From: a virus
IMG/VR virus record: IMGVR_UViG_3300020410_000079
Span: 1-20,244 of that record
Strand: one strand, 5' to 3'
DNA: 20,244 nucleotides
The notes below the pieces were generated by a model. The model had not been told where the DNA came from. It searched no databases and was given only the letters and a program-made list of their open reading frames with translations. A program made the translations under genes and the position numbers. Shown here in pieces: positions 1,060 through 19,368 of this stretch; positions within the stretch are counted from its first letter, which is position 1, and each line of letters starts with the position of its first letter.

Positions 1060-3474
1060 TTATGCGGTACCTTGAACTCGTACGACTATTTGACCGACCA
1101 TTGCACCATGGTTGCCACACTGATAGAAGTATGTACCAGCTGTGTTCGGCGTCCACGATACAGTTCCAACTTGTGCACCCTGATTCGTTGCTGCTGGAGT
1201 CGTGACCTGATTGCCCGTTCCGGTTCCTGCAACCGTCTTGATGTAGAACGGATGACCCGAAGCATTCACCGCGAAGTTCACCGTGTCGCCAACATTCATT
1301 GTTACTGTCTTATTGTTACCACTCACGTTAGCCAACCTATCTACGCCGGTGAGTACGTATGCGCCTGTTCCGGAGTTAGTAACACTAATATCGTAAGTGT
1401 TGTTTTGATTTGTATTGTAGAAGAATGTACCCTGTGTAAGTGAGCTGTTTGCATAATTCATTGTAATCGTTGCGTTGGTATTCGACGATGTTGCATTGAT
1501 GAAGTATGCTCCATTCGCTGTGCCACCAACACCGACTATCATAATCTTCGTGTTGCCCATCGGTATATCGGATGTAAAGAATGTATTGTTGCCGATCAGA
1601 GTCTTCGGTGATCCGAGCGAACCGATTGCCAATGTAGCGTAAGTATTGATGACTACACTCGCGTACGCACCAATGATATTGTTCGATGTAATATCGATCT
1701 TGCCTCGGGCTGTCTTCAGTATATCGAATCGAGTCTGTGCGGTAACTGTTGGTGTTGTTGCGACCAGCGTCGGTTGTGGTATGACGAATGTGTTTGCAGC
1801 CTCGCTGATGTAATCCTGTTCACTTGCAGATACAACGGTCGGTACATTGACCTGTATCGTACTTTCTACCTGCAGTCTACCATTTCCTGTACTATCGACT
1901 GATGCAAGAGTCGTTTGCAGACCGCTATAAACTCTGTATCTGCCAAACATCTTAGTGCCGGCCGGATGAACAAGATCATTTACAATCTTACGATAAGTAT
2001 TCGTAAATTGATCTGCTCCTATCTCATATGAGAACTCTTGATAATAGTAGTTATCCTGTAGCTTGTTATTCCAAGAGATAAACCCTTTTGTATCGATGTA
2101 CTTACCTGGATAAGTAATGAAGCCAGATACCTGAGGTGCGCCCTTCGCAGCTTGTGTTCCACCACGCGTAAGGTTGTTAATTGTAACTTCTTCGTTCTTA
2201 TTATAGTTGATACCGAAGTTGGCAACATTCACTGATGTAATAGCACCAGGAACATTGTTAGCAACAAGACTTGCATTATCACCCTTTATTCCGCCACTAC
2301 CATCAGAAATGTTTAAGTTCTTGACTTCAGGCTGTGTAACAGTTACGCCCGGAAGAGTAGAATATCCATATCCGTAGTTAGACATAGAAATAGAATTGAT
2401 AGTACCATACGTACCGTTCGCGAATAGAAGTGCAGAATTGAGAGCAGATGATACGTTTGCAGAAGCAAGATTTGCACTTACTGATGCCGTATTTGCTCCA
2501 AGAGAAACGAAAGTAGATCCTGTATTCAATACGACATTTGCCATCGGCAGTATCGTATCTTGGTTTATCGCTATAACCTCAGTGCTGCTGAGCGATGCGA
2601 CTGTACCCTCTGCTTCGAAACCGCTTCCACCAGTAAGCGTAATAACCGCATTTGCTGCAAAACCAGAACCGCCGTTCAGTATAACAAACTCTATAGCACT
2701 CTTATCGCTCGTAGCTGTTACAGCTCCGTTCGCACCAGTACCAGTTGTTGCAGAAAAGCTTACGAGATCATCGGCTCGATGAAATGCTCCACCCTTTTGC
2801 ACTGTAACATTTTGTAGAGGACCTTCAGTACTGACGATAGAAGCAAAAGTTGATTCATCACTTTCAAGAGATATTCTTTCACCATCCTCGAACGTACCGA
2901 CAATATCAAGAAGATACATCTCAAAGACTCGAGCACCAGCTGCAGTAGTACTTACGATGTTGTCAACTCTGGCGGTTGCCTCTGATATGAGACCCTTGAT
3001 CTTTTCACCTTCGAAGGTGGACTTAATATCAGTAAGACCTGATGATTGAGGTTCTCCAACTCTGATAGTCGTTTCAACTACCCATCGACCATCTGACAAG
3101 CGAAGCATATCATCGCCGGGATAATAAAAATCTATCTCTTCATTATAGAGGAGTCTGAATAAAAGTCTGTATGATTGTTCTGATCCGCGTGACCGATATA
3201 GGTCCTTAATATTCTTTGCGAGTTTCTTTTTATCTGCAAGAATAGTTCTTGGAATGGTCGGCATAATCTCACGATGAAAATACTCAAAGTACTTATCGTA
3301 AGTCTTATCGACATCTTGATAATCAAGAAGACTCTTTGAAACCTCGATAGCATTATTGGCTTGATCCATCCACTCGTAGTAAGCTTTAATGAAAGCCGTA
3401 AAGTTCGGATGATCGCCCCTTACAAAGAAGGGTAGTTGATCCTCAATAATATTCGAGATCTTTTTCTCAGACAT
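1060..3474 (-). CDS. Baseplate wedge protein (gp7-like position) with C-terminal cupredoxin domain
   Basis: This 804-residue structural protein lies between gp6 and gp8, where T4 has gene 7. Its N-terminal third (about residues 1-150) is a helical domain with FIKAYYEWMDQ, YRSRGSEQSYRLLFRLLY and a DGRWV segment, which I associate with baseplate wedge proteins of marine T4-like phages. The middle consists of glycine-rich beta repeats (NGGSGF, YGYGYSTLPGVTV). The last 75 or so residues look like a type-1 copper (cupredoxin) fold: H741 in SGHPFYIKT, then C786, H789 and M792 in YFYQCGNHGAMVG. All four copper ligands are present, with amicyanin-like C-x2-H-x2-M spacing. The start codon overlaps the gp6 stop as TAATG, implying translational coupling. 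The gp7 assignment rests on position; it is much shorter than T4 gp7. Confidence 0.75.
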   Translation of the reverse strand: MSEKKISNIIEDQLPFFVRGDHPNFTAFIKAYYEWMDQANNAIEVSKSLLDYQDVDKTYDKYFEYFHREIMPTIPRTILADKKKLAKNIKDLYRSRGSEQSYRLLFRLLYNEEIDFYYPGDDMLRLSDGRWVVETTIRVGEPQSSGLTDIKSTFEGEKIKGLISEATARVDNIVSTTAAGARVFEMYLLDIVGTFEDGERISLESDESTFASIVSTEGPLQNVTVQKGGAFHRADDLVSFSATTGTGANGAVTATSDKSAIEFVILNGGSGFAANAVITLTGGSGFEAEGTVASLSSTEVIAINQDTILPMANVVLNTGSTFVSLGANTASVSANLASANVSSALNSALLFANGTYGTINSISMSNYGYGYSTLPGVTVTQPEVKNLNISDGSGGIKGDNASLVANNVPGAITSVNVANFGINYNKNEEVTINNLTRGGTQAAKGAPQVSGFITYPGKYIDTKGFISWNNKLQDNYYYQEFSYEIGADQFTNTYRKIVNDLVHPAGTKMFGRYRVYSGLQTTLASVDSTGNGRLQVESTIQVNVPTVVSASEQDYISEAANTFVIPQPTLVATTPTVTAQTRFDILKTARGKIDITSNNIIGAYASVVINTYATLAIGSLGSPKTLIGNNTFFTSDIPMGNTKIMIVGVGGTANGAYFINATSSNTNATITMNYANSSLTQGTFFYNTNQNNTYDISVTNSGTGAYVLTGVDRLANVSGNNKTVTMNVGDTVNFAVNASGHPFYIKTVAGTGTGNQVTTPAATNQGAQVGTVSWTPNTAGTYFYQCGNHGAMVGQIVVRVQGTA

Positions 3475-5324
3475 TAGTACACCACAGGATAGAGACCAGT
3501 ATCAACCACGGTAGTTGATACGCCAGAAGTTGTAGCTGCTACAGTAGTCGCATTGACCTGCGATGTTTGATCGTTGACTATAGTTGTCTTTGCGTTTGCA
3601 ATGAGAAGAATTTGATTCCTGACTGCTACAACATCCTTATCATGAGGAGTCGCAAATACACTTACCGATGATCCTTCATAAGCAGTCGGTAAGAATGCGT
3701 CGAGCTTTACGAGACCAGTAGTGTAATTCACTGTACCTGCGTCTGAATCAGAAACAACACGATTACCAGCAGAGTCAAGATAATAGATTCGAACTTTTCC
3801 GTTACCATCATCGTCAAGATAAGAGTCACGACTATTGAAAGTAAATTTAGACGATCTTATGGCGTATGCATGACCAGCGTGTGGATGAAATAACTTTTGA
3901 TTGAAAGCAATGTTATATGTTGCTGCTTTAGTTTTAGAAGGAGCAAACCTTCTTTCCATTTCTATGTCTGTTAAACTGCTGAGTATCGAAGGATCGGAAT
4001 CATCAATGGCTCGTGTGTACTTCGAGAATCTAAATTTTTGTTTATTAAAATCGCTAAGATTAGCAGACTCGAAGTTTGATATAGAAGTATTTACTTTTGT
4101 TTGTACTTCACCCGCACTAAGTGTTGTAAAATTTGGATCCCACCGAATGGTGGTCGTTGGATTTACATAGAGGAACTGAGCATCAACGAACTCTGTATCG
4201 ATAGATAGAATGTTATGCTTTTTAAGAACATCTTTAATCTGGGTCTTACGAGTAGAAGATAGAACGTTACCGGACTTTGGCTTCGCTGATACATAAACTT
4301 TACCGTAGATAGGAGGATCATTTTCTTCACCACCCCATACACTTATGGATTGTATATCTCCAGTTTCTCGAAGAATGATTCTCTTGTAATCTTCTGCAAG
4401 TACAGCACGATTCTGAGATTCAAAATTCTTTGGTGCATTAAACTTAATAGAATCGATACTCTCGAATGATGCTCCGCCTGCTGTGTTAGCATTCACTACC
4501 GTAGTAAATACAGATGATCCACCGACCGTACTCGGATCAGTGAATGTACCTATATCATTTCCGATTTCACCGTTGCAGGAACGATAATTTATAATTACGA
4601 TGTTACCGTTCTGCGGTGTCTTACCAAGTATACCGTCTCCGAAGTAAACTTCATATTGATTCTCAGCTTCTTCTTCAAGGAAGTATACAGCAGAGTTTGC
4701 TTGAACCTGCGTAAGATCAGTCGCAAGATTATACCGCGTTGAAGATGTATCGGTCGATGAAGCCTGAACATCAACTACAATAGATGTCGTATCGACATTT
4801 TCATTTGGTATAATGAACTTTTGAGTATCGAGGTTATCAACGGTAAAACGATGTGTAAGCGGCTGACCTTCAACGACTGTGATAACACCACTGTAGTTAT
4901 TTGAAGAAGTAAATGTGTATGCTTGAGGAGTTACGAACTTCAGTGTCTGACCATCTACTGATGCAGTCCATTCCGTATTCTTATCGATTGTAACATCGGT
5001 CGGTGAACCCGTAGGAGTAACCGTAACAGTAAAGTTTGTGTTTGCGCCACGAGCAGATGTCGGCATATAGTTCAACATCTTAGCTCTTGATACGACACTC
5101 TCTCGTAGCTGTGCCGAGTCAAGGAACATCTCGTTGCCGACCATGCTTGTATAGTAAGCATTCTGATATGTATTATACGCAAGCATATCAATCAATAGAC
5201 TGATAGCAGAACCTTCGAAGTTGAAATCAAGAAACTCTGGTTGTGCTCTCAAAAAATCTTTTAGTGATACCTTGATATCATCAAAGTCTAATTCAGTGAC
5301 GCTTATGGTTGAATTTGCTGCCAT
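3474..5324 (-). CDS. 6: Baseplate wedge protein gp6
   Basis: This is a 616-residue protein of the gp6/J-like wedge family, which forms the inner ring of the baseplate around the hub. The N-terminus contains LKDFLRAQPEFLDFNFEGS followed by LIDMLAYNTYQNAYYTSM, then ESVVSRAKMLNYMPTSARGA, a hallmark of gp6. A central segment has VYFGDGILGK, the typical J/gp6 motif, followed by VLAEDYKRIILRE. The length is close to T4 gp6 (about 660). It overlaps the gp25 stop upstream and the gp7-like start downstream by one base each (TAATG), so gp25, gp6 and the gp7-like gene form a tightly coupled wedge operon under the late promoter at 5773-5780. Confidence 0.93.
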   Translation of the reverse strand: MAANSTISVTELDFDDIKVSLKDFLRAQPEFLDFNFEGSAISLLIDMLAYNTYQNAYYTSMVGNEMFLDSAQLRESVVSRAKMLNYMPTSARGANTNFTVTVTPTGSPTDVTIDKNTEWTASVDGQTLKFVTPQAYTFTSSNNYSGVITVVEGQPLTHRFTVDNLDTQKFIIPNENVDTTSIVVDVQASSTDTSSTRYNLATDLTQVQANSAVYFLEEEAENQYEVYFGDGILGKTPQNGNIVIINYRSCNGEIGNDIGTFTDPSTVGGSSVFTTVVNANTAGGASFESIDSIKFNAPKNFESQNRAVLAEDYKRIILRETGDIQSISVWGGEENDPPIYGKVYVSAKPKSGNVLSSTRKTQIKDVLKKHNILSIDTEFVDAQFLYVNPTTTIRWDPNFTTLSAGEVQTKVNTSISNFESANLSDFNKQKFRFSKYTRAIDDSDPSILSSLTDIEMERRFAPSKTKAATYNIAFNQKLFHPHAGHAYAIRSSKFTFNSRDSYLDDDGNGKVRIYYLDSAGNRVVSDSDAGTVNYTTGLVKLDAFLPTAYEGSSVSVFATPHDKDVVAVRNQILLIANAKTTIVNDQTSQVNATTVAATTSGVSTTVVDTGLYPVVY

Positions 5325-11539: not shown

Positions 11540-12151
11540 ATGGTTGCTTACGTATTCGATAAGATTCTACAGCAGGGTGTAGCTGCAGGAGAAGTTCCCG
11601 CAAGAACTCGTGCTGCGCGTGACTGGTTTCGTGAAACTGCATCTGGGTTTCGTACGACTCCAAACGAATTGATAAGAGGAGCAGCAGAAGCTGAAGGAGG
11701 TAGTGCTCTTACGGGTAAGACACTTCCTGGTCGCATGTATACCTTCTTCTATGATCCAAAGACTAAGCGAGATCTACCTTACTACGATAGGTTTCCTCTA
11801 ATCTTCAAGATCAAGAATGTTAGTGGTGGATTCCTTGGTATCAATATGCACTATCTGCCACCGCAGTTAAGAGCAAGATTGATGGATGCGCTGTATCCAC
11901 TCGTAACGAATCGTAAGTACGATGAGACTACTCGTCTACGATTAACATATGAAATTCTGAACGGTGCAACCAAGTATCGATTCTTTAAGCCTACTATTAA
12001 GAAGTACTTGAACAGTCATGTAAGATCTCGATACGTTCTCATCAATGCAAATCAGTGGGACATGGCTCTATTCCTACCGACAGAACGTTTCGTTAAGAAG
12101 AATAAGAATTTCGTTTGGCAAGAGAGTCGTAAAGCAATAAGGAGACGCTGA
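11540..12151 (+). CDS. 2: DNA end protector protein gp2-like
   Basis: This 203-residue basic protein follows gp4. It contains the block GRMYTFFYDPKTKRDLPYYD, then RFPLIFKIKNVSGGFLGINM and HYLPPQLRARLMDAL, which I associate with gp2 of marine T4-like phages. gp2 caps the packaged DNA end and shields it from host RecBCD after injection. The N-terminal 60 residues are Ala/Arg-rich, and the C-terminus ends in a strongly basic RKAIRRR tail, suited to DNA contact. AAGGAG lies five bases before the ATG. The stop overlaps the next start as TGATG. T4 gp2 is longer (about 274), so the match is to the family core. Confidence 0.75.
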   Translation: MVAYVFDKILQQGVAAGEVPARTRAARDWFRETASGFRTTPNELIRGAAEAEGGSALTGKTLPGRMYTFFYDPKTKRDLPYYDRFPLIFKIKNVSGGFLGINMHYLPPQLRARLMDALYPLVTNRKYDETTRLRLTYEILNGATKYRFFKPTIKKYLNSHVRSRYVLINANQWDMALFLPTERFVKKNKNFVWQESRKAIRRR

Positions 12152-12831
12152 TGCCATTCAACATCAATAATTTTAGTGCAGAAATAAACAGTAATGGATT
12201 TGCGCGCGGTGATTTCTTTGATGTGTCTTTTACAGGATTTCCTATAAAGGTTGTAGCTGCTATCGAGGGGTCTACCAATCCACCTACGAATGTCAGATCT
12301 GACTTTTTAACATTGAGAGCCGAGTCTGTAACTGTACCACAAAGAGCCATCACTCCTATCGAGTACAAGGACTATGGTGCTCCATACAAGATAGGTTCTA
12401 CTGCGAACTATATCGAGATTGATGTAACATTCATTCTAAGTAAAAACATGAGGGAACGTAACTTCTTTCTTGCTTGGCAGGACGTTATCACAGGAGATCA
12501 TCGTCTTAGATCGACTAATGCACGAGGATCGTCTTTTGATCTTGGTTACTTTGATGACTATAAATGCGATGGAATAGAAATCAGACATTTTACAGGTGAT
12601 GATTCGAATGTATTAAATAGAACAGATACACCTGTATACATTACACAATTAAGAGATGCCTATCCACTGAACGTAGGTCCAGTTACAAGATCATGGGCAT
12701 CAGCAGAAATATTGAAGCAGCAGGTTACATTTACGTACCGCTACTTCTCTGAGAGACCATCCGGTTTCGTTGAAACTCGTACTAAGCCTGAACGAGTTGG
12801 CCGAAATAATTCTTTTTTCGGTGCATTTTAA
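12151..12831 (+). CDS. Tail-tube-fold protein, probable gp54-like tube initiator
   Basis: This 226-residue protein opens with MPFNINNFSAEINSNGFARG, then FFDVSFTGFP, SVTVPQRAITPIEYKDYG and, near the end, DAYPLNVGPVTRSWASAEIL followed by QQVTFTYRYF. This order (membrane-free beta barrel, a 'VP.R.i' strand, a late 'YP..v....' element and a closing strand) is the pattern of tail-tube proteins such as gp19 and the tube-initiating baseplate protein gp54. At this size, and next to the chaperone and tape-measure genes, gp54 is more likely than the major tube protein gp19 (about 163 residues), but the two cannot be separated with certainty here. AAGGAG lies six bases before the start. Confidence 0.65.
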   Translation: MPFNINNFSAEINSNGFARGDFFDVSFTGFPIKVVAAIEGSTNPPTNVRSDFLTLRAESVTVPQRAITPIEYKDYGAPYKIGSTANYIEIDVTFILSKNMRERNFFLAWQDVITGDHRLRSTNARGSSFDLGYFDDYKCDGIEIRHFTGDDSNVLNRTDTPVYITQLRDAYPLNVGPVTRSWASAEILKQQVTFTYRYFSERPSGFVETRTKPERVGRNNSFFGAF

Positions 12832-12849
12832 ATTATATGGAGATACACT

Positions 12850-13560
12850 ATGCCTTTACCAAAGTTGGTAACGCCTGAGTTTACAATTTCGGTTCCATCG
12901 ACTAAGGAACCAGTTAAGATTAGACCATTTCTAGTGAAGGAAGAAAAAGTTCTCTTCATGGCAATGGAAGGAAACGATGCAAAAGATATTGAGGGAGCTA
13001 TTACGAATATCTTAGAAGCTTGTATTCTTACACCCGGAGTAGATGTAAAGAAGTTGCCGTCATACGACTTAGAGTATCTATTTCTACAGTTACGAGGTAA
13101 GTCGGTCGGTGAGACAATCAAACTTAAGATGTCACACGGAGAAGATAAAGAGTGCAGGGCAGTCACTGACGTTGAGATCAATGTCGAGGATATCAATGTA
13201 TTCTTTGATGAAGATCACACTAATAAGATACAGATCTCTAACGAGATAGGAATTAAGTTTAGGGATCCGAGTCTGCGAGATCTGACCAGTGTAGATATTG
13301 CAGAAAATAATTATGATACCGTAGTGAATGTTGTTGCTAACTGTATTGATATGGTATACGATAAAGAAGATGTATATGATCAATTCACGAGAGAAGAAAG
13401 TGTTGAATTCTTGAATAGTATGACACAGGATCAGTTCACAAAGGTTCAAGGATTCTTTGATACACTACCAAGATTGAAGCACACTATAACTTGGACTTGT
13501 CCAGAATGCGGAGAAACAGATAGCGTTACAGTCGAAGGACTGCAGAATTTTTTTACATAG
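12850..13560 (+). CDS. 26: gp26-like baseplate hub / tape-measure chaperone, zero-frame product
   Basis: This 236-residue protein matches the T4 gp26-type base plate family: MPLPKLVTPEFTISVPSTKE, PVKIRPFLVKEEKVLFMAME and YDLEYLFLQLRGKSVGETI are the family's recognisable blocks. A CPECG knuckle near residue 218 has only one visible Cys pair. GGAGA lies six bases before the ATG. In its last codons the frame reads through seven consecutive T (13548-13554) and stops at TAG 13558-13560. The -1 frame is open from the T run to 13736 and reads as a natural continuation. The protein precedes a tape measure, so by analogy with lambda G/GT it may chaperone that protein; the chaperone role is inference. 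Confidence 0.85.
   Translation: MPLPKLVTPEFTISVPSTKEPVKIRPFLVKEEKVLFMAMEGNDAKDIEGAITNILEACILTPGVDVKKLPSYDLEYLFLQLRGKSVGETIKLKMSHGEDKECRAVTDVEINVEDINVFFDEDHTNKIQISNEIGIKFRDPSLRDLTSVDIAENNYDTVVNVVANCIDMVYDKEDVYDQFTREESVEFLNSMTQDQFTKVQGFFDTLPRLKHTITWTCPECGETDSVTVEGLQNFFT
13548..13554 (+). promoter_or_regulatory. Candidate -1 ribosomal slippery heptamer
   Basis: Seven T in a row, in zero-frame register T TTT TTT followed by ACA TAG, fit the X XXY YYZ rule. The zero-frame stop lies two codons after the slippery codons. Confidence 0.65.
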
Positions 13561-13736
13561 CGCTCAGTCATGATAACTTAGCGAATTATTATCAAATGAA
13601 TTTTTCGCTATTACAACACCATAAGTATTCATTGGCTGAGCTTGAAGATATGATACCATTCGAGCGCGACATCTATATACATATGCTCGTGCAACATTTA
13701 GAAGAAGAACAAAAAAGGCTAGAAAGAAATGGCTAA
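13548..13736 (+). CDS. -1 frame extension of the gp26-like protein (probable frameshift product, gp51-like)
   Basis: Read in the -1 frame from the T run, the extension is FFYIALSHDNLANYYQMN followed by FSLLQHHKYSLAELEDMIP and FERDIYIHMLVQHLEEEQ, ending at TAA 13734-13736. This is about 60 residues after the slip; full fusion product about 295 residues. The segment upstream of the first internal ATG (13596) already looks like protein (YIALSHDNLANYYQ), so initiation at 13596 (46 residues) would waste conserved-looking sequence. The heptamer T TTT TTT allows both tRNAs to re-pair. The stop overlaps the tape-measure ATG at 13729. Alternatives are a separate 46-residue gene with no good ribosome site, or a real single-base indel. 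Confidence 0.72.
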   Translation, partial: FFYIALSHDNLANYYQMNFSLLQHHKYSLAELEDMIPFERDIYIHMLVQHLEEEQKRLERNG

Positions 13737-16443
13737 TCTTCAAGACGTCATCGAACGTATGAAAGCGGAAGGTGATCTGACTCGAAATAGCGGCACCAAT
13801 TCTCTGAAGCAGACGAATCGTATTCTTGGTGAAGTAAGAACCGAGCTTGTTGAGATTGGTAAGAGCCTTGGCGCTATTCGTACGGTTGGAGGTCTTGGTG
13901 GCGGTCAGGTAGTACAAGTAGTCGGTGGAGCCGGTGGTGGCAGCGGTGGAACAGCAGCTGCAGCAACAGCACCCGTTTCAGGCGGTGAGAATAATGATCC
14001 ACAAACTATCATGGGTCTTCTTGGTGCAGCCATACGCAATCAAACATTGGGTCGAGTTGAAAGAGCATCTGAAGCAGCATTAGATTTCGCGGCTGAGAAG
14101 TTTAGAGAAAGTGCACTCGGTAAAGGTTTAGCTGCTACTCAAAAGTTCGCTGGTGAAAAGGTCGAGGGTACGAAGGAAGGTCTACGGGGTCTGGCTGGTC
14201 TACAGACGAACGAAGAGAGAGACGATCTGCTCAGAAAGTCTGCCGAAGAAGAGAACGCTACTCGAGAATCAATCGATAGACTCGTAGAAGTACAGACCGC
14301 CATGCTCGGTCTATCGGAAGATGAAGCGCAAGCATTACGTAACCGAGAACTTGAGAAAGCAGATCTTGGATCCGGAGGTTCAGCAGCACCTACCGCGACT
14401 ATGATAGGAGCTGGAGCGACAGGAGCGGCCGGTGGTGGTGGTGCCGGCGGTGGCGGAAGCCGCCATGGCGGTGCAAGCGGAGATGGTGCCGGTAAGATGG
14501 GAGGTATTATCGGTAAGTTCTTTGGTGGACTTGCTGGTGGAGCTCTGTCAGGCTTTATCATGGCGCTCGGTAATCCTGCCATGATAAAGGCATCAGCTAT
14601 ATTTGCTATAGTTTTACCGCTGATAGGTGTAGCTCTTGCTGGATTTATTGCTGCGCTCGGACTCGGATTCGCTGCAGCTGCAGCAGTAGCCGGTAAGGGA
14701 CTCGAAGTACTTAACGATCCGCTCGAACACTTTTCTGATGTCATGGGCAACTTCGAAATGCTCGATGGCCAGAAAATCGGAGAAGCCGGTATCGGAATGG
14801 GTACGTTCTTCACTGAGTTGCCACTCCTGAAGATTGGTGCAACGGCTGTTGTTCTTGACAAACTTGACTTAGATGGCTTAGGTAAGTTTTCTGATGCAAT
14901 GAAAGTCTTTGAGAAGACTGATGGTCAGAAACTCAGCGTAGCTGGAACGGGAATAGGAAACTTCTTTGATAATCTACCAGGCCTGGGTGATCTATTATCT
15001 GGATTGGCTGCCGGTAAAGTTAGTGGTAGTCTAGGAGCACTGGCTGACTCTCTTGTAAAGTTTAATGATGTTAACGCAGACAAGCTCAAAACTATCGGTC
15101 CTGCTGTAGGACAATTAGGTGAAGGCTTGTTAGCAGCTGGTCTCGGTGAAGTCTTTAGTACTATATCATCGGCTCTCGGAGGAGAAGGCGGTGGAATCGA
15201 AGGACAGATGACGAGCCTAGCAAATGGCTTTAGACAATTTAGTGATATCAATGCCGACGATGTTGCTAAGATCGGCCCAGCAGTTAAAAACTTAGGTGAA
15301 GGATTAAAGGCTGCAGGTGACAGTGGCGGATTCGGAAATGCTCTTGGTGGTATCGTATCGAGTATAGGTTCATTCTTTGGAGCTGAAGAAAAAGATCCTA
15401 TAGAGATGTTTAAGAAGTTTGCAGTACTCGGTGAAGGTGAGACCGGAGATAGTTTGAAGAGAGCAGGTGAAGCAGTAGGTGGATTAGGGAAAGGCCTCGC
15501 TTCTATCAACAATCTCGATATGGGTAATCTTGATGACTTTGTTGATGATATTCTCCCACCCCTCACTAAGTTAAGTTCGAGTTTTAATAGTCCGGAAATG
15601 GCTGGAGATCCACTGGGTAAATTTAGTGCAGGCCTTGTTAAGCTCGGAGAACTCGAGAAAGTAAACGGCACAGAAGTTCAAGCTAATCTTACAAATATAG
15701 GTAAGGGTTTATCCAGCTTCGCTGAAGATCTTGAAGATGGTAAAATCAAAACACTTCAAAAAGCTGCCTTTATACTTAGTATGATATTCGGTAAATCTGC
15801 TGGTGGTGGAGGAGCAGCACCTCGACAAGAAAGAGCAGGAGGAGCACGAGGAATATTCGGAAGTCCTGGAGGTGCTAATCTTTTGTATGGAGAAACGAGA
15901 TCCGCGGATCTTGAAGGAGCCACTTATCGTAATGAACTGAAATACGGTAAGGAAGCCTTAGCACAAGGTCCAAGTACGCGAGCATTACGAAAAGCAATGT
16001 TTGGCGGTGATGTTAGAAAAGATCTTGCGATGAGAAAAAGGGTCATTGAAAATCTAAAGAGACAAGGTTATACAGATGAACAGCTTTCTCCAGAAGGTCT
16101 TGAGAAACTTACTGGCAAAAAGGGTACAGGCACGGTGCAATTTGGTGGTAAAACATATGATAGTCGAGCCATCGGTTTATATAGAAATCTAAAAGAAGAG
16201 CAAGAGCGATCTCTTATGAGTCCTGGTGGTGGAAGAATGAATGGTGCTGCTATGAATGGCGCTTCGGGTGAAATTGCTGCAGGACAGAGACAGGGTGGTG
16301 GTAATATAGTAGCACCGACAGATAACAGTAATAACTCCACAAATGTTACGAATGTAAATAACGGCGGTGGTGGTGGCAGTCCTCCACCTTCTCCACGCAG
16401 ATCTCAACATCGTGGTGGAATGTATGATGTACGTAATTTCTAA
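13729..16443 (+). CDS. Tail tape-measure / baseplate hub protein (gp29-like position)
   Basis: This 904-residue protein has the layout of a tape measure. It starts with a helical, charged N-terminus (residues 1-50), then a Gly/Ala-rich stretch (about 52-85) and a long helical part with RESIDRLVEVQTAMLGLSED. A glycine hinge follows near 220-260 and a hydrophobic block near 265-325 (SGFIMALGNPAMIKASAIFA, then IVLPLIGVALAGFIAALGLG). Six degenerate repeats (about 330-675) with FSD or FxDxNAD and IGxAVxxLGEGL come next. The C-terminus is basic, then Asn/Gly-rich (NNSTNVTNVNNGGGGG). It follows the gp26-like/frameshift pair, the usual place for a tape measure. It is longer than T4 gp29 (590). The start overlaps the preceding -1 frame stop. 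Assignment rests on composition and context. Confidence 0.7.
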   Translation: MANLQDVIERMKAEGDLTRNSGTNSLKQTNRILGEVRTELVEIGKSLGAIRTVGGLGGGQVVQVVGGAGGGSGGTAAAATAPVSGGENNDPQTIMGLLGAAIRNQTLGRVERASEAALDFAAEKFRESALGKGLAATQKFAGEKVEGTKEGLRGLAGLQTNEERDDLLRKSAEEENATRESIDRLVEVQTAMLGLSEDEAQALRNRELEKADLGSGGSAAPTATMIGAGATGAAGGGGAGGGGSRHGGASGDGAGKMGGIIGKFFGGLAGGALSGFIMALGNPAMIKASAIFAIVLPLIGVALAGFIAALGLGFAAAAAVAGKGLEVLNDPLEHFSDVMGNFEMLDGQKIGEAGIGMGTFFTELPLLKIGATAVVLDKLDLDGLGKFSDAMKVFEKTDGQKLSVAGTGIGNFFDNLPGLGDLLSGLAAGKVSGSLGALADSLVKFNDVNADKLKTIGPAVGQLGEGLLAAGLGEVFSTISSALGGEGGGIEGQMTSLANGFRQFSDINADDVAKIGPAVKNLGEGLKAAGDSGGFGNALGGIVSSIGSFFGAEEKDPIEMFKKFAVLGEGETGDSLKRAGEAVGGLGKGLASINNLDMGNLDDFVDDILPPLTKLSSSFNSPEMAGDPLGKFSAGLVKLGELEKVNGTEVQANLTNIGKGLSSFAEDLEDGKIKTLQKAAFILSMIFGKSAGGGGAAPRQERAGGARGIFGSPGGANLLYGETRSADLEGATYRNELKYGKEALAQGPSTRALRKAMFGGDVRKDLAMRKRVIENLKRQGYTDEQLSPEGLEKLTGKKGTGTVQFGGKTYDSRAIGLYRNLKEEQERSLMSPGGGRMNGAAMNGASGEIAAGQRQGGGNIVAPTDNSNNSTNVTNVNNGGGGGSPPPSPRRSQHRGGMYDVRNF
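14719..15745 (+). repeat. About six degenerate repeats in the tape-measure protein
   Basis: Copies of roughly 52-70 residues begin near FSDVMGNFEMLDGQKIG, FSDAMKVFEKTDGQKLS, LVKFNDVNADKLKTIGPAV, FRQFSDINADDVAKIGPAV, FKKFAVLGEGETGDSLK and FSAGLVKLGELEKVNGTEV. Each is followed by a Gly-spaced (I/V)GxxxGxL(G/F) helix. Copies one/two and three/four are the closest pairs, suggesting stepwise duplication. Confidence 0.7.
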
Positions 16444-17486: not shown

Positions 17487-17642
17487 CTAGAAATAATTGT
17501 CTTGTTCGATACTTTTTTGCTCCCATGTTGGTTTGAAAGTTCGTAACTCATTCTGCATATAGCTAACTTCTTTCTCGAGTTCCCTTACACGCTCTCTTAG
17601 CTTCTGCAGTTCACCCGTGTATCTTTCTACTTCAAGATTCAT
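17487..17642 (-). CDS. 51-residue coiled-coil protein
   Basis: A short ORF lies between gp59 and gp32. It reads MNLEVERYTGELQKLRERVR, then ELEKEVSYMQNELRTFKP, ending NYF. Residues about 4-36 show regular Leu/Val spacing with alternating charges, as in a two-stranded coiled coil. AAGGAG lies eight bases before the ATG, inside the end of gp59, and the start overlaps the gp59 stop by 11 bases. The strong ribosome site and tight coupling argue for a real gene. I do not recognise it. The end of the ORF lies just upstream of the -35 box of the gp32 promoter. Confidence 0.75.
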   Translation of the reverse strand: MNLEVERYTGELQKLRERVRELEKEVSYMQNELRTFKPTWEQKSIEQDNYF

Positions 17643-18243
17643 TGATAGTCTCCTTGAGTTTCTTTCGATATGAAAACTTATCGTAGCTTAAAAACTGACG
17701 ATAATTAGAAATGAGTTGTTTCTTTTCCTCCCATACAATATCATCTAATCTTGCATTCCAGTACCGTATGAACTTCAATACACCATCCATTATAATAATA
17801 GTCTCGATACTGATCTTCTTCTGAAGCAATAACTTCAGTAACAAAGGATGATTGCCATCCTCTACCAGTAGTAATTTATTAAGCTCCAGATCCCGATCCC
17901 GGCAGTGATCAACAAGCCAACGTAACTCGTTATCAAAATGATAGCTAAGAGATTCACGGCGCTTCTTAAATTGTACATAGTTATCTTCACTTTCTTGGGA
18001 TACAAGATTGCCTACCCAGTTGTTGCTAATAATGAAGTTGCTGACATAGAACTCTATGAGCTCTTCCTTATCGTACTTCTTCGATAGCTTACGAAAGAAG
18101 AACCTGTCGTTACGTTTTAAAAATGACTCTTCACCTGCTCGTACTTTACCGTTATACTTAAAGTAATCATAGTTACTCGTGAAGTGCTGCTTCAGAGCAA
18201 GGTATACCTTGTAAGCATCAAAACCTTCAGTTACTTCGTACAT
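17632..18243 (-). CDS. 59: Replicative helicase loader gp59
   Basis: This protein of about 203 residues matches T4 gp59 (217), which loads the gp41 helicase on gp32-coated forks. Shared blocks are DAYKVYLALKQHFTSNYDYF-KYN, KRNDRFFFRKLSKKYDKEEL, SNFIISNNWVGN, RESLSYHFDNELRWL, and further on LLKLLLQKKISIETIIIMDG and DDIVWEE. The gene sits directly upstream of gp32 as in T4. I place the start at the ATG at 18243, which overlaps the SufU-like stop by 13 bases. The in-frame ATG at 18279 would add 12 residues and a 49-base overlap. The C-terminus is basic. Confidence 0.93.
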   Translation of the reverse strand: MYEVTEGFDAYKVYLALKQHFTSNYDYFKYNGKVRAGEESFLKRNDRFFFRKLSKKYDKEELIEFYVSNFIISNNWVGNLVSQESEDNYVQFKKRRESLSYHFDNELRWLVDHCRDRDLELNKLLLVEDGNHPLLLKLLLQKKISIETIIIMDGVLKFIRYWNARLDDIVWEEKKQLISNYRQFLSYDKFSYRKKLKETINES

Positions 18244-18647
18244 GCTTCTCTCATGGCGTGCCAACTCATCGTGGCACATTTTACTCTAGTCGGAAACTTA
18301 CTTACGCCTGATAATGATTTCATGATTTCAGTGTCATCGTCATCTTCTACTTCTTGACCAGTACACAATTTATGAAACTTATCAAAGAGTATAAGCACCT
18401 CTTCTATTGTTCTACCTTTAATCATGCTTGACATAATCGATGCACTAGCAACACTGATAGCACAACCTCGAGCTCTGTAGCTTACATCTGATACAACACC
18501 ATCCTTAATATCAACATATACAGTAAGTTGATCGCCGCACATAGGATTGTTTGCTTCTGTAGTGCATGTGTATTGTTCCAGCACTCCAAAGTTGCGTGGA
18601 CTTTTTGCGTGGTCCAAAATTACTTCTTGATACAGTTCGTCGATCAT
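18231..18647 (-). CDS. sufU: SufU-type iron-sulfur cluster assembly protein
   Basis: This 138-residue protein is of the SufU/IscU scaffold family, which receives sulfur from a cysteine desulfurase and helps build Fe-S clusters. The three conserved cysteines and the aspartate are present: C37 and D39 in NNPMCGD, C62 in RARGCAIS, and C124 in FPTRVKCATMSWHAM. The GVSKFPTRVKCAT insert before the third Cys marks the SufU branch (a zinc-dependent sulfur acceptor in Bacillus) rather than IscU. Full length, no sign of decay. Its start overlaps the gp33 stop as ATGA, so it is co-translated with gp33 and gp59. A phage copy is best read as an auxiliary metabolic gene supporting host Fe-S supply during infection; partner enzyme unknown here. 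Confidence 0.93.
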   Translation of the reverse strand: MIDELYQEVILDHAKSPRNFGVLEQYTCTTEANNPMCGDQLTVYVDIKDGVVSDVSYRARGCAISVASASIMSSMIKGRTIEEVLILFDKFHKLCTGQEVEDDDDTEIMKSLSGVSKFPTRVKCATMSWHAMREACTK

Positions 18648-18877
18648 ACTGGTAATTTCTGAATCTTTTCCTTCATCATATTGAGATCACTTGCTTCTGA
18701 AGCAATTGTTTGTTTGATCTTTGTGTTAAGAAGCTTCGCGGCTACTTCAATTTCCATGTCGTTTTTGTCACAATAATGCACAACTGCATCCATATATGAG
18801 ATCTTCAATCCACAAGCAATCTTTTCAATCTGCATTGAGAAAGAGCTCGTGTTGAATATTTTTACTGCTTCTTCCAT
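18644..18877 (-). CDS. 33: Late transcription co-activator gp33
   Basis: This 77-residue protein resembles the short gp33 proteins of marine T4-like phages: FSMQIEKIACGLKISYMDAV followed by VHYCDKNDMEIEVAAKLL, NTKIKQTIASEASDLNM and a final KIQKLPV. gp33 links RNA polymerase to the sliding clamp and co-activates late promoters; the C-terminal hydrophobic end would contact the clamp. The presence of exact TATAAATA late promoters in this window agrees with this role. The start lies inside the end of the SleB-like gene (16-base overlap) and the stop overlaps the SufU-like start. In T4, gene 33 also neighbours 59 and 32. Confidence 0.85.
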   Translation of the reverse strand: MEEAVKIFNTSSFSMQIEKIACGLKISYMDAVVHYCDKNDMEIEVAAKLLNTKIKQTIASEASDLNMMKEKIQKLPV

Positions 18878-19368
18878 CTGTAGAAAATGTGATCCTCTAT
18901 TTTAGTGGTTCTCGTCTTGGTTTTTGCCCATGATGGAGATACGTAGTATGCATGATAGTGAGTAGCTCCAGTAGTGATGTCGATCATATTCTGTTTCATT
19001 AACATCCGAGAAAGATCAACGATATCAGAATATTCTTTCTTTTGTGTTATCTTGTCAGATTTACCATCGCAATACCAAGAGAAATGACATTTATTTCTTA
19101 TAGGTATCATTTCACCAGTGCCTTTCCATGACGGGCGATGAGGTCCCTGTGTAATAACTTCGCATATCGTATTGGGGAATCTTTTATCCCGTACACGATT
19201 GAGTGTTACCTGACCAACAGCAATCTGACCTGCTATAGATTGATTTCTTGCTTCATGATAGATATTAAGAGAGAGACAACTCGTCTCATCATCTATTGCT
19301 GTAGCGCTAGATGCGTAACTGCTCATAGCTGCTATAAGCAAAGCTTTAATCGCTGCGTGTTCAAACAT
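18862..19368 (-). CDS. SleB-like cell wall hydrolase with signal peptide
   Basis: This 168-residue protein has the Hydrolase_2/SleB fold pattern: LNIYHEARNQSIAGQIAVGQ with the probable catalytic E39, VTLNRVRDKRFPNTICEVI, KCHFSWYCDGKSD, GATHYHAYYVSPSWAKT and a final HIFYRW. These enzymes cut the glycan strands of peptidoglycan. Residues 1-24 look like a signal peptide (AAIKALLIAAMSSYASSATA) with cleavage after ATA, so it may reach the periplasm without a holin. It is the first gene behind a strong sigma70-type promoter and overlaps gp33. As the gp5-like spike here shows no lysozyme, this is the only visible wall-degrading enzyme in the window. Role in lysis or entry not decided by sequence. 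Confidence 0.9.
   Translation of the reverse strand: MFEHAAIKALLIAAMSSYASSATAIDDETSCLSLNIYHEARNQSIAGQIAVGQVTLNRVRDKRFPNTICEVITQGPHRPSWKGTGEMIPIRNKCHFSWYCDGKSDKITQKKEYSDIVDLSRMLMKQNMIDITTGATHYHAYYVSPSWAKTKTRTTKIEDHIFYRWKKQ

Follow-up and report, generated by a model that had tools for sequence, protein, structure and literature searches.

A probable programmed −1 frameshift joining gp26- and gp51-like sequences in an uncultured marine T4-like virus

The stretch of DNA analyzed here (the window) is the 20,244-nt IMG/VR virus record IMGVR_UViG_3300020410_000079, which comes from an uncultured marine T4-like virus related to cyanophages and includes a baseplate and tail module of the T4-like kind. 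A tail tube gene on the plus strand is the immediate upstream neighbor of a gp26-like gene, which is followed by an extension in the −1 frame and then by a 904-residue ORF whose first 8 nt lie within the extension (Table 1). The gp26-like protein matches PF12322 (T4_baseplate) over its full length and well over the cut-off (E = 3.6e-58, profile positions 2–218 of 219). The 904-residue ORF gave no profile match in a Pfam search, and its label as a tape measure gene is positional. Elsewhere in the window, the minus strand encodes a baseplate-wedge protein (1060–3474, PF23786), at the C-terminus of which a cupredoxin-like copper-site pattern can be recognized by eye (GHPFYIK...FYQCGNHGAMVG) and no Pfam domain is reported. 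The same strand encodes a NifU/IscU-like Fe-S scaffold protein (18231–18647, PF01592, E = 5e-25), the gene for which adjoins that of a gp59 helicase loader (17632–18279), with a cell-wall hydrolase gene (18862–19368) nearby.

Table 1. Features of the gp26-like locus and its neighbors in the window.
Feature	Position (nt)	Strand	Basis or remark
Tail tube protein gene (lambda V position)	12151–12831	+	PHROG 45 tail tube, E = 3.5e-28; PF23849, E = 1e-6
gp26-like gene, putative TAC-N short form (236 aa, zero frame, including TAG)	12850–13560	+	PF12322, PHROG 150
Shine-Dalgarno-like (SD-like) GAAGGA, candidate frameshift stimulator	13534–13539	+	8 nt 5' of heptamer; GGAGG or GAGG there family-wide
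Slippery heptamer T_TTT_TTT	13548–13554	+	Sequence; T_TTT_TTN in phase in 149/149 non-redundant relatives
−1 extension, putative TAC-C or gp51 C-terminal part (60 aa, including TAA)	13554–13736	+	PHROG 634, E = 3.5e-25
Predicted stem with inner hairpin	13562–13641	+	13562–13573 pairs with 13629–13631 and 13633–13641; 7 nt 3' of heptamer
Probable tape measure protein gene (904 aa)	13729–16443	+	ORF; assigned from position and length

The 3' end of the gp26-like gene reads CTG CAG AAT TTT TTT ACA TAG in the zero frame, in which the heptamer is followed by ACA and then by the stop codon at 13558–13560, as a first-pass annotation of this DNA had described. T_TTT_TTT lies in the phase required for tandem −1 slippage and conforms to the X_XXY_YYZ pattern close to the point where the short ORF terminates. 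From 34 nt 5' of the zero-frame stop, the −1 frame is open to a TAA at 13734–13736; it supplies 60 codons, up to 13733 (YIALSHDNLANYYQMNFSLLQHHKYSLAELEDMIPFERDIYIHMLVQHLEEEQKRLERNG), and the predicted fused product has 295 residues. The same annotation had proposed a coherent −1 extension reaching the start of the tape measure gene, and both the position of the TAA relative to the ORF start at 13729 and the match to PHROG 634 bear this out. A +1 shift was considered as well and is ruled out by the closure of the +1 frame no more than 25 nt from the gp26 stop, both in the window and in the rest of the initial set of relatives.

The extension aligns with positions 58–113 of the 121 in the PHROG 634 (gp51) profile, also matches the end of PHROG 150, and shares homology with the C-terminal end of T4 gp51. 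Across 84 independent pairs of relatives, substitutions in this region fall mostly at third positions of the −1 frame, for which pN/pS is 0.159, compared with 1.2 and 2.7 for the other two frames. These values indicate strong purifying selection on the extension, acting in the −1 frame only.

Relatives were retrieved using gp26 patterns and patterns within the extension, with the heptamer outside all of them, and the loci counted were those on the plus strand of IMG/VR contigs and cultured phages. T_TTT_TTN is in phase in 205 of these loci, 203 of which have a recognized −1 extension. The plus-strand loci that lack the heptamer in phase belong to the Ackermannviridae, to one T4-type gp51 locus, and to a single broken contig, the sole exception outside those two groups, in which the gp26 frame is apparently broken. 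Dereplication at 80% DNA identity left 149 non-redundant loci, and a comparison of the two frames across them, which the first-pass annotation had suggested as a check, found the heptamer in phase and the −1 frame open in every one. The last codon of the heptamer is TTC in 102 loci, TTT in 42, TTA in three and TTG in two. The codon preceding the Phe pair is NNT in 149/149, whereas codon usage predicts 90; given the amino acids, the retention of both NNT and a leading TTT throughout corresponds to a log10 P of about −57, a value that is indicative only, because codon usage was pooled and the genes were treated as independent. Among cultured phages, the heptamer is present in several groups: Syn1, S-PM2, S-CAM4, S-T4 and HTVC008M; KVP40; a CC2-like phage, PX29 and VmeM-32; Stenotrophomonas Ps15; Rhizobium N34; and Caulobacter Cr30.

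This conservation bears on the other ways in which the junction could be read. Homopolymer runs are prone to error, and one such reading is that a single intact gene has been broken by an indel introduced into its T run during sequencing or assembly, but the phase is identical across 205 loci and many cultured genomes. Because these contigs and genomes were sequenced independently, an indel is excluded in practice; moreover, no single miscalled run length can account for the loci, since most carry the shorter TTTTTTC, and we regard the chance of such an error as negligible. It is also very improbable, if slightly less so, that the Phe pair is kept for reasons of protein function, with TTT TTT as a by-product and the −1 frame as a decaying relic. 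The pair is indeed retained in the gp26 of T4, VR7 and JD18, where the −1 extension is absent, but there it is encoded as TTC TTT and no T_TTT_TTN heptamer results, whereas TTT always comes first in the frameshifting lineages. The strong purifying selection on the extension is likewise at odds with decay.

The strongest competitor, which we nevertheless consider improbable, is that the extension constitutes a small gene in its own right (gp51), expressed through re-initiation or from a separate start. Separate gp51 ORFs are annotated in most cyanophage records, and a start overlapping the gp26 stop is found in KVP40 and Rhizobium N34 (12 of the 149 loci have such a start). However, 81 of the 149 loci, including the window, have no ATG, GTG or TTG in the −1 frame up to 10 nt beyond the stop, and conserved residues of the extension lie 5' of the annotated internal starts. 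An independent gp51 gene would also leave the heptamer and its codon bias unexplained, and in T4 gp51 both parts are found in one protein.

Two further elements surround the heptamer. In most relatives GGAGG, GAGG or AAGG occurs 10–15 bases 5' of it, and the Glu codon at this SD-like site is GAG in 80 of 112 cases (71%) compared with 27% elsewhere (p = 1e-22), while the Leu or Val codon 5' of that Glu ends in G in 50% compared with 20%; both preferences are synonymous choices. On the downstream side, folding energies compared family-wide with dinucleotide shuffles are strongest for 60-nt stretches beginning 4–10 nt 3' of the heptamer, and the mean z against synonymous shuffles over the 90 nt downstream is −2.09, as opposed to −0.25 to −0.60 in control stretches. 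The best helix begins 5–9 nt 3' of the heptamer in 44% versus 19%. The 98-nt fold of the window itself has an energy of −25.9 kcal/mol (z = −3.93), its first pair being 13562–13641. RNAalifold returned no consensus structure for 13 near relatives, covariation in the window's own helix was no greater than in shuffles, and long-range helices of at least 50 nt were no commoner than in control windows. Because the RNAalifold and covariation tests were null, the case for a stem is built on family-wide statistics of energy and position; as the individual helix differs from relative to relative with covariation at chance level, these statistics support a stem in a fixed place and give no support to a single conserved structure. 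Taken with the codon bias at the SD-like site, the downstream structure peak suggests that the frameshift signal is probably three-part, comprising an SD-like sequence, T_TTT_TTN and a downstream stem.

In T4 itself, gp26 and gp51 are encoded on opposite strands, and both proteins match PHROG 150 strongly. T4 gp51 (249 residues) is collinear with the predicted 295-residue fusion over its whole length and through the junction (~240 columns, 99% probability), and the first ~190 residues of gp51, taken by themselves, match gp26 at 97–98% probability, while controls (gp25, gp27, gp28 and UvsY, together with reversed and column-shuffled gp26 profiles) reached at most 2.2%. As the N-terminal ~190 residues of gp51 are gp26-like, the counterpart of the entire frameshift product is T4 gp51, and that of the short form is T4 gp26; judged from these alignments, the long form is encoded in T4 as a separate gene. 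The T4-type gp26 and gp51 clades are sisters in a gp26/gp51 tree, with support of only 77, which is consistent with a single duplication. We also observed a weak match of T4 gp26 (positions 3803–4429 of its record) to PHROG 1140, the gp28 family (E = 9e-4), which may be a further relative, although an hhalign comparison of gp51 with gp28 was unsupportive. It was noted previously that cyanophage and vibriophage gp51 proteins lack the first ~200 residues, so that they look cut down to ~20% of T4 gp51, and that Aeh1 seemingly has no gp51 (Sullivan 2010, PMC3037559). Both the truncation and the apparent absence would be explained if gp26 supplies the missing part through frameshifting, and the Aeh1-type phages that we examined (Aeh1 itself not among them) have the gp51 part as a −1 extension.

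Relatives with separate genes and no slip site, the pattern that the first-pass annotation had set against its own reading, are seen, among the loci surveyed, only in the T4 branch, and the Ackermannviridae keep a homologous −1 extension without T_TTT_TTN (23 loci). These viruses have [AC]TT TTY, placed one codon ahead of the stop, in most cases within R ATT TTC AT[TC] TAA. In four cyanophage and pelagiphage records, the extension is either unannotated or entered as a short ORF of its own that begins at an internal start, and none of the public records inspected joins it to gp26. Tentatively, at somewhat less than even odds, we propose that T4-like phages outside the T4 branch use a complete three-part frameshift signal of the bacterial kind, made up of an SD-like site, T_TTT_TTN and a stem 5–9 nt downstream that changes rapidly in sequence while holding its position, that gene duplication replaced this signal once in the T4 branch, and that the Ackermannviridae have a non-canonical [AC]TT_TTY site where the heptamer would be.

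In lambda, the tape measure protein is coated by TAC-N (the G protein), while GT recruits tail tube subunits by way of its extension. The predicted structure of the gp26-like protein (mean pLDDT 86.7) has 3FGX, 3KLU and 2OB9 as its best solved matches (Z = 7.6–7.8, the next rows being 5.4 and 2.6), although a Z of 7–8 is moderate, covers residues 1–95 only, and is accompanied by non-significant Foldseek E-values. All three are described as phage tail assembly chaperones (PMC9603447). The heptamer, the coding −1 frame, the gene order and the predicted chaperone-like fold of gp26 together fit the lambda G/GT arrangement, and by this analogy the locus most likely acts as G/GT does, yielding TAC-N and TAC-NC. 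We consider it highly probable (about 0.93) that a programmed −1 slip yields the TAC-N and TAC-NC chaperone pair of this T4-like marine phage. Most ribosomes would halt at the TAG at 13558 and release the 236-residue TAC-N (gp26), while a minority, aided by the SD-like sequence upstream and the RNA stem downstream, would slip back by one base on T_TTT_TTT and continue to a 295-residue TAC-NC, the last 60 residues of which match the C-terminus of T4 gp51. TAC-N would then coat the tape measure protein, with the extension of TAC-NC recruiting tail tube subunits. That slippage occurs, its rate, the ratio of the products and their action as chaperones are what we infer from the slip site, the conserved −1 frame, the SD-like and structure signals, the gp26/gp51 homology and the TAC-like predicted fold.

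The likeness to lambda lies in the order tail tube, G, T, tape measure, in a −1 shift shortly before G ends, and in a major short product and a minor long one, the latter proportion being a prediction for the window. The slip site of lambda is G_GGA_AAG, unlike T_TTT_TTT here, and the resemblance is one of arrangement and probable fold. In drawing the parallel with G/GT, the first-pass annotation was right about the heptamer and the coding −1 frame, and its equation of the gp26/gp51 pair with G/GT is supported, except that T4 gp51 corresponds to the whole fusion and not to the T part only. A further parallel is the TAC locus of the Vandenendeviridae and Andersonviridae, which likewise has a conserved −1 frame after TAC-N and a T-rich motif, although this motif is GTTTTT rather than T_TTT_TTN (PMC12846349). 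The novelty implied for the arrangement is not supported, since the T4-like case, as it is presented in papers citing the original study, is already published (PMC10274946, PMC12846349). According to these accounts, some T4-like phages have two TAC genes, one of them short and the other a long fusion (Vladimirov, Gautam & Davidson 2022, Virology 566:9–15, cited in PMC10274946), and poly-T slippery sites are known in T4-like TAC-N genes (Vladimirov 2022, cited in PMC12846349); beyond that study and the papers citing it, our literature search found no other description of a T4-like frameshift. With the chaperone role of gp26/gp51 and the poly-T sites published, as far as the citing papers convey, the window adds a well-supported member to a known system. 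It shares its protein families and poly-T slip signals with the T4-like phages of Vladimirov 2022 as cited there, and differs in coming from an uncultured marine virus and in having its SD-like and stem signals measured in the present analysis; novelty may lie in the three-part signal and in the Ackermannviridae variant. A natural comparison for the determinants of the short-to-long ratio is available between T4-like phages that have the frameshift and those that lack it.
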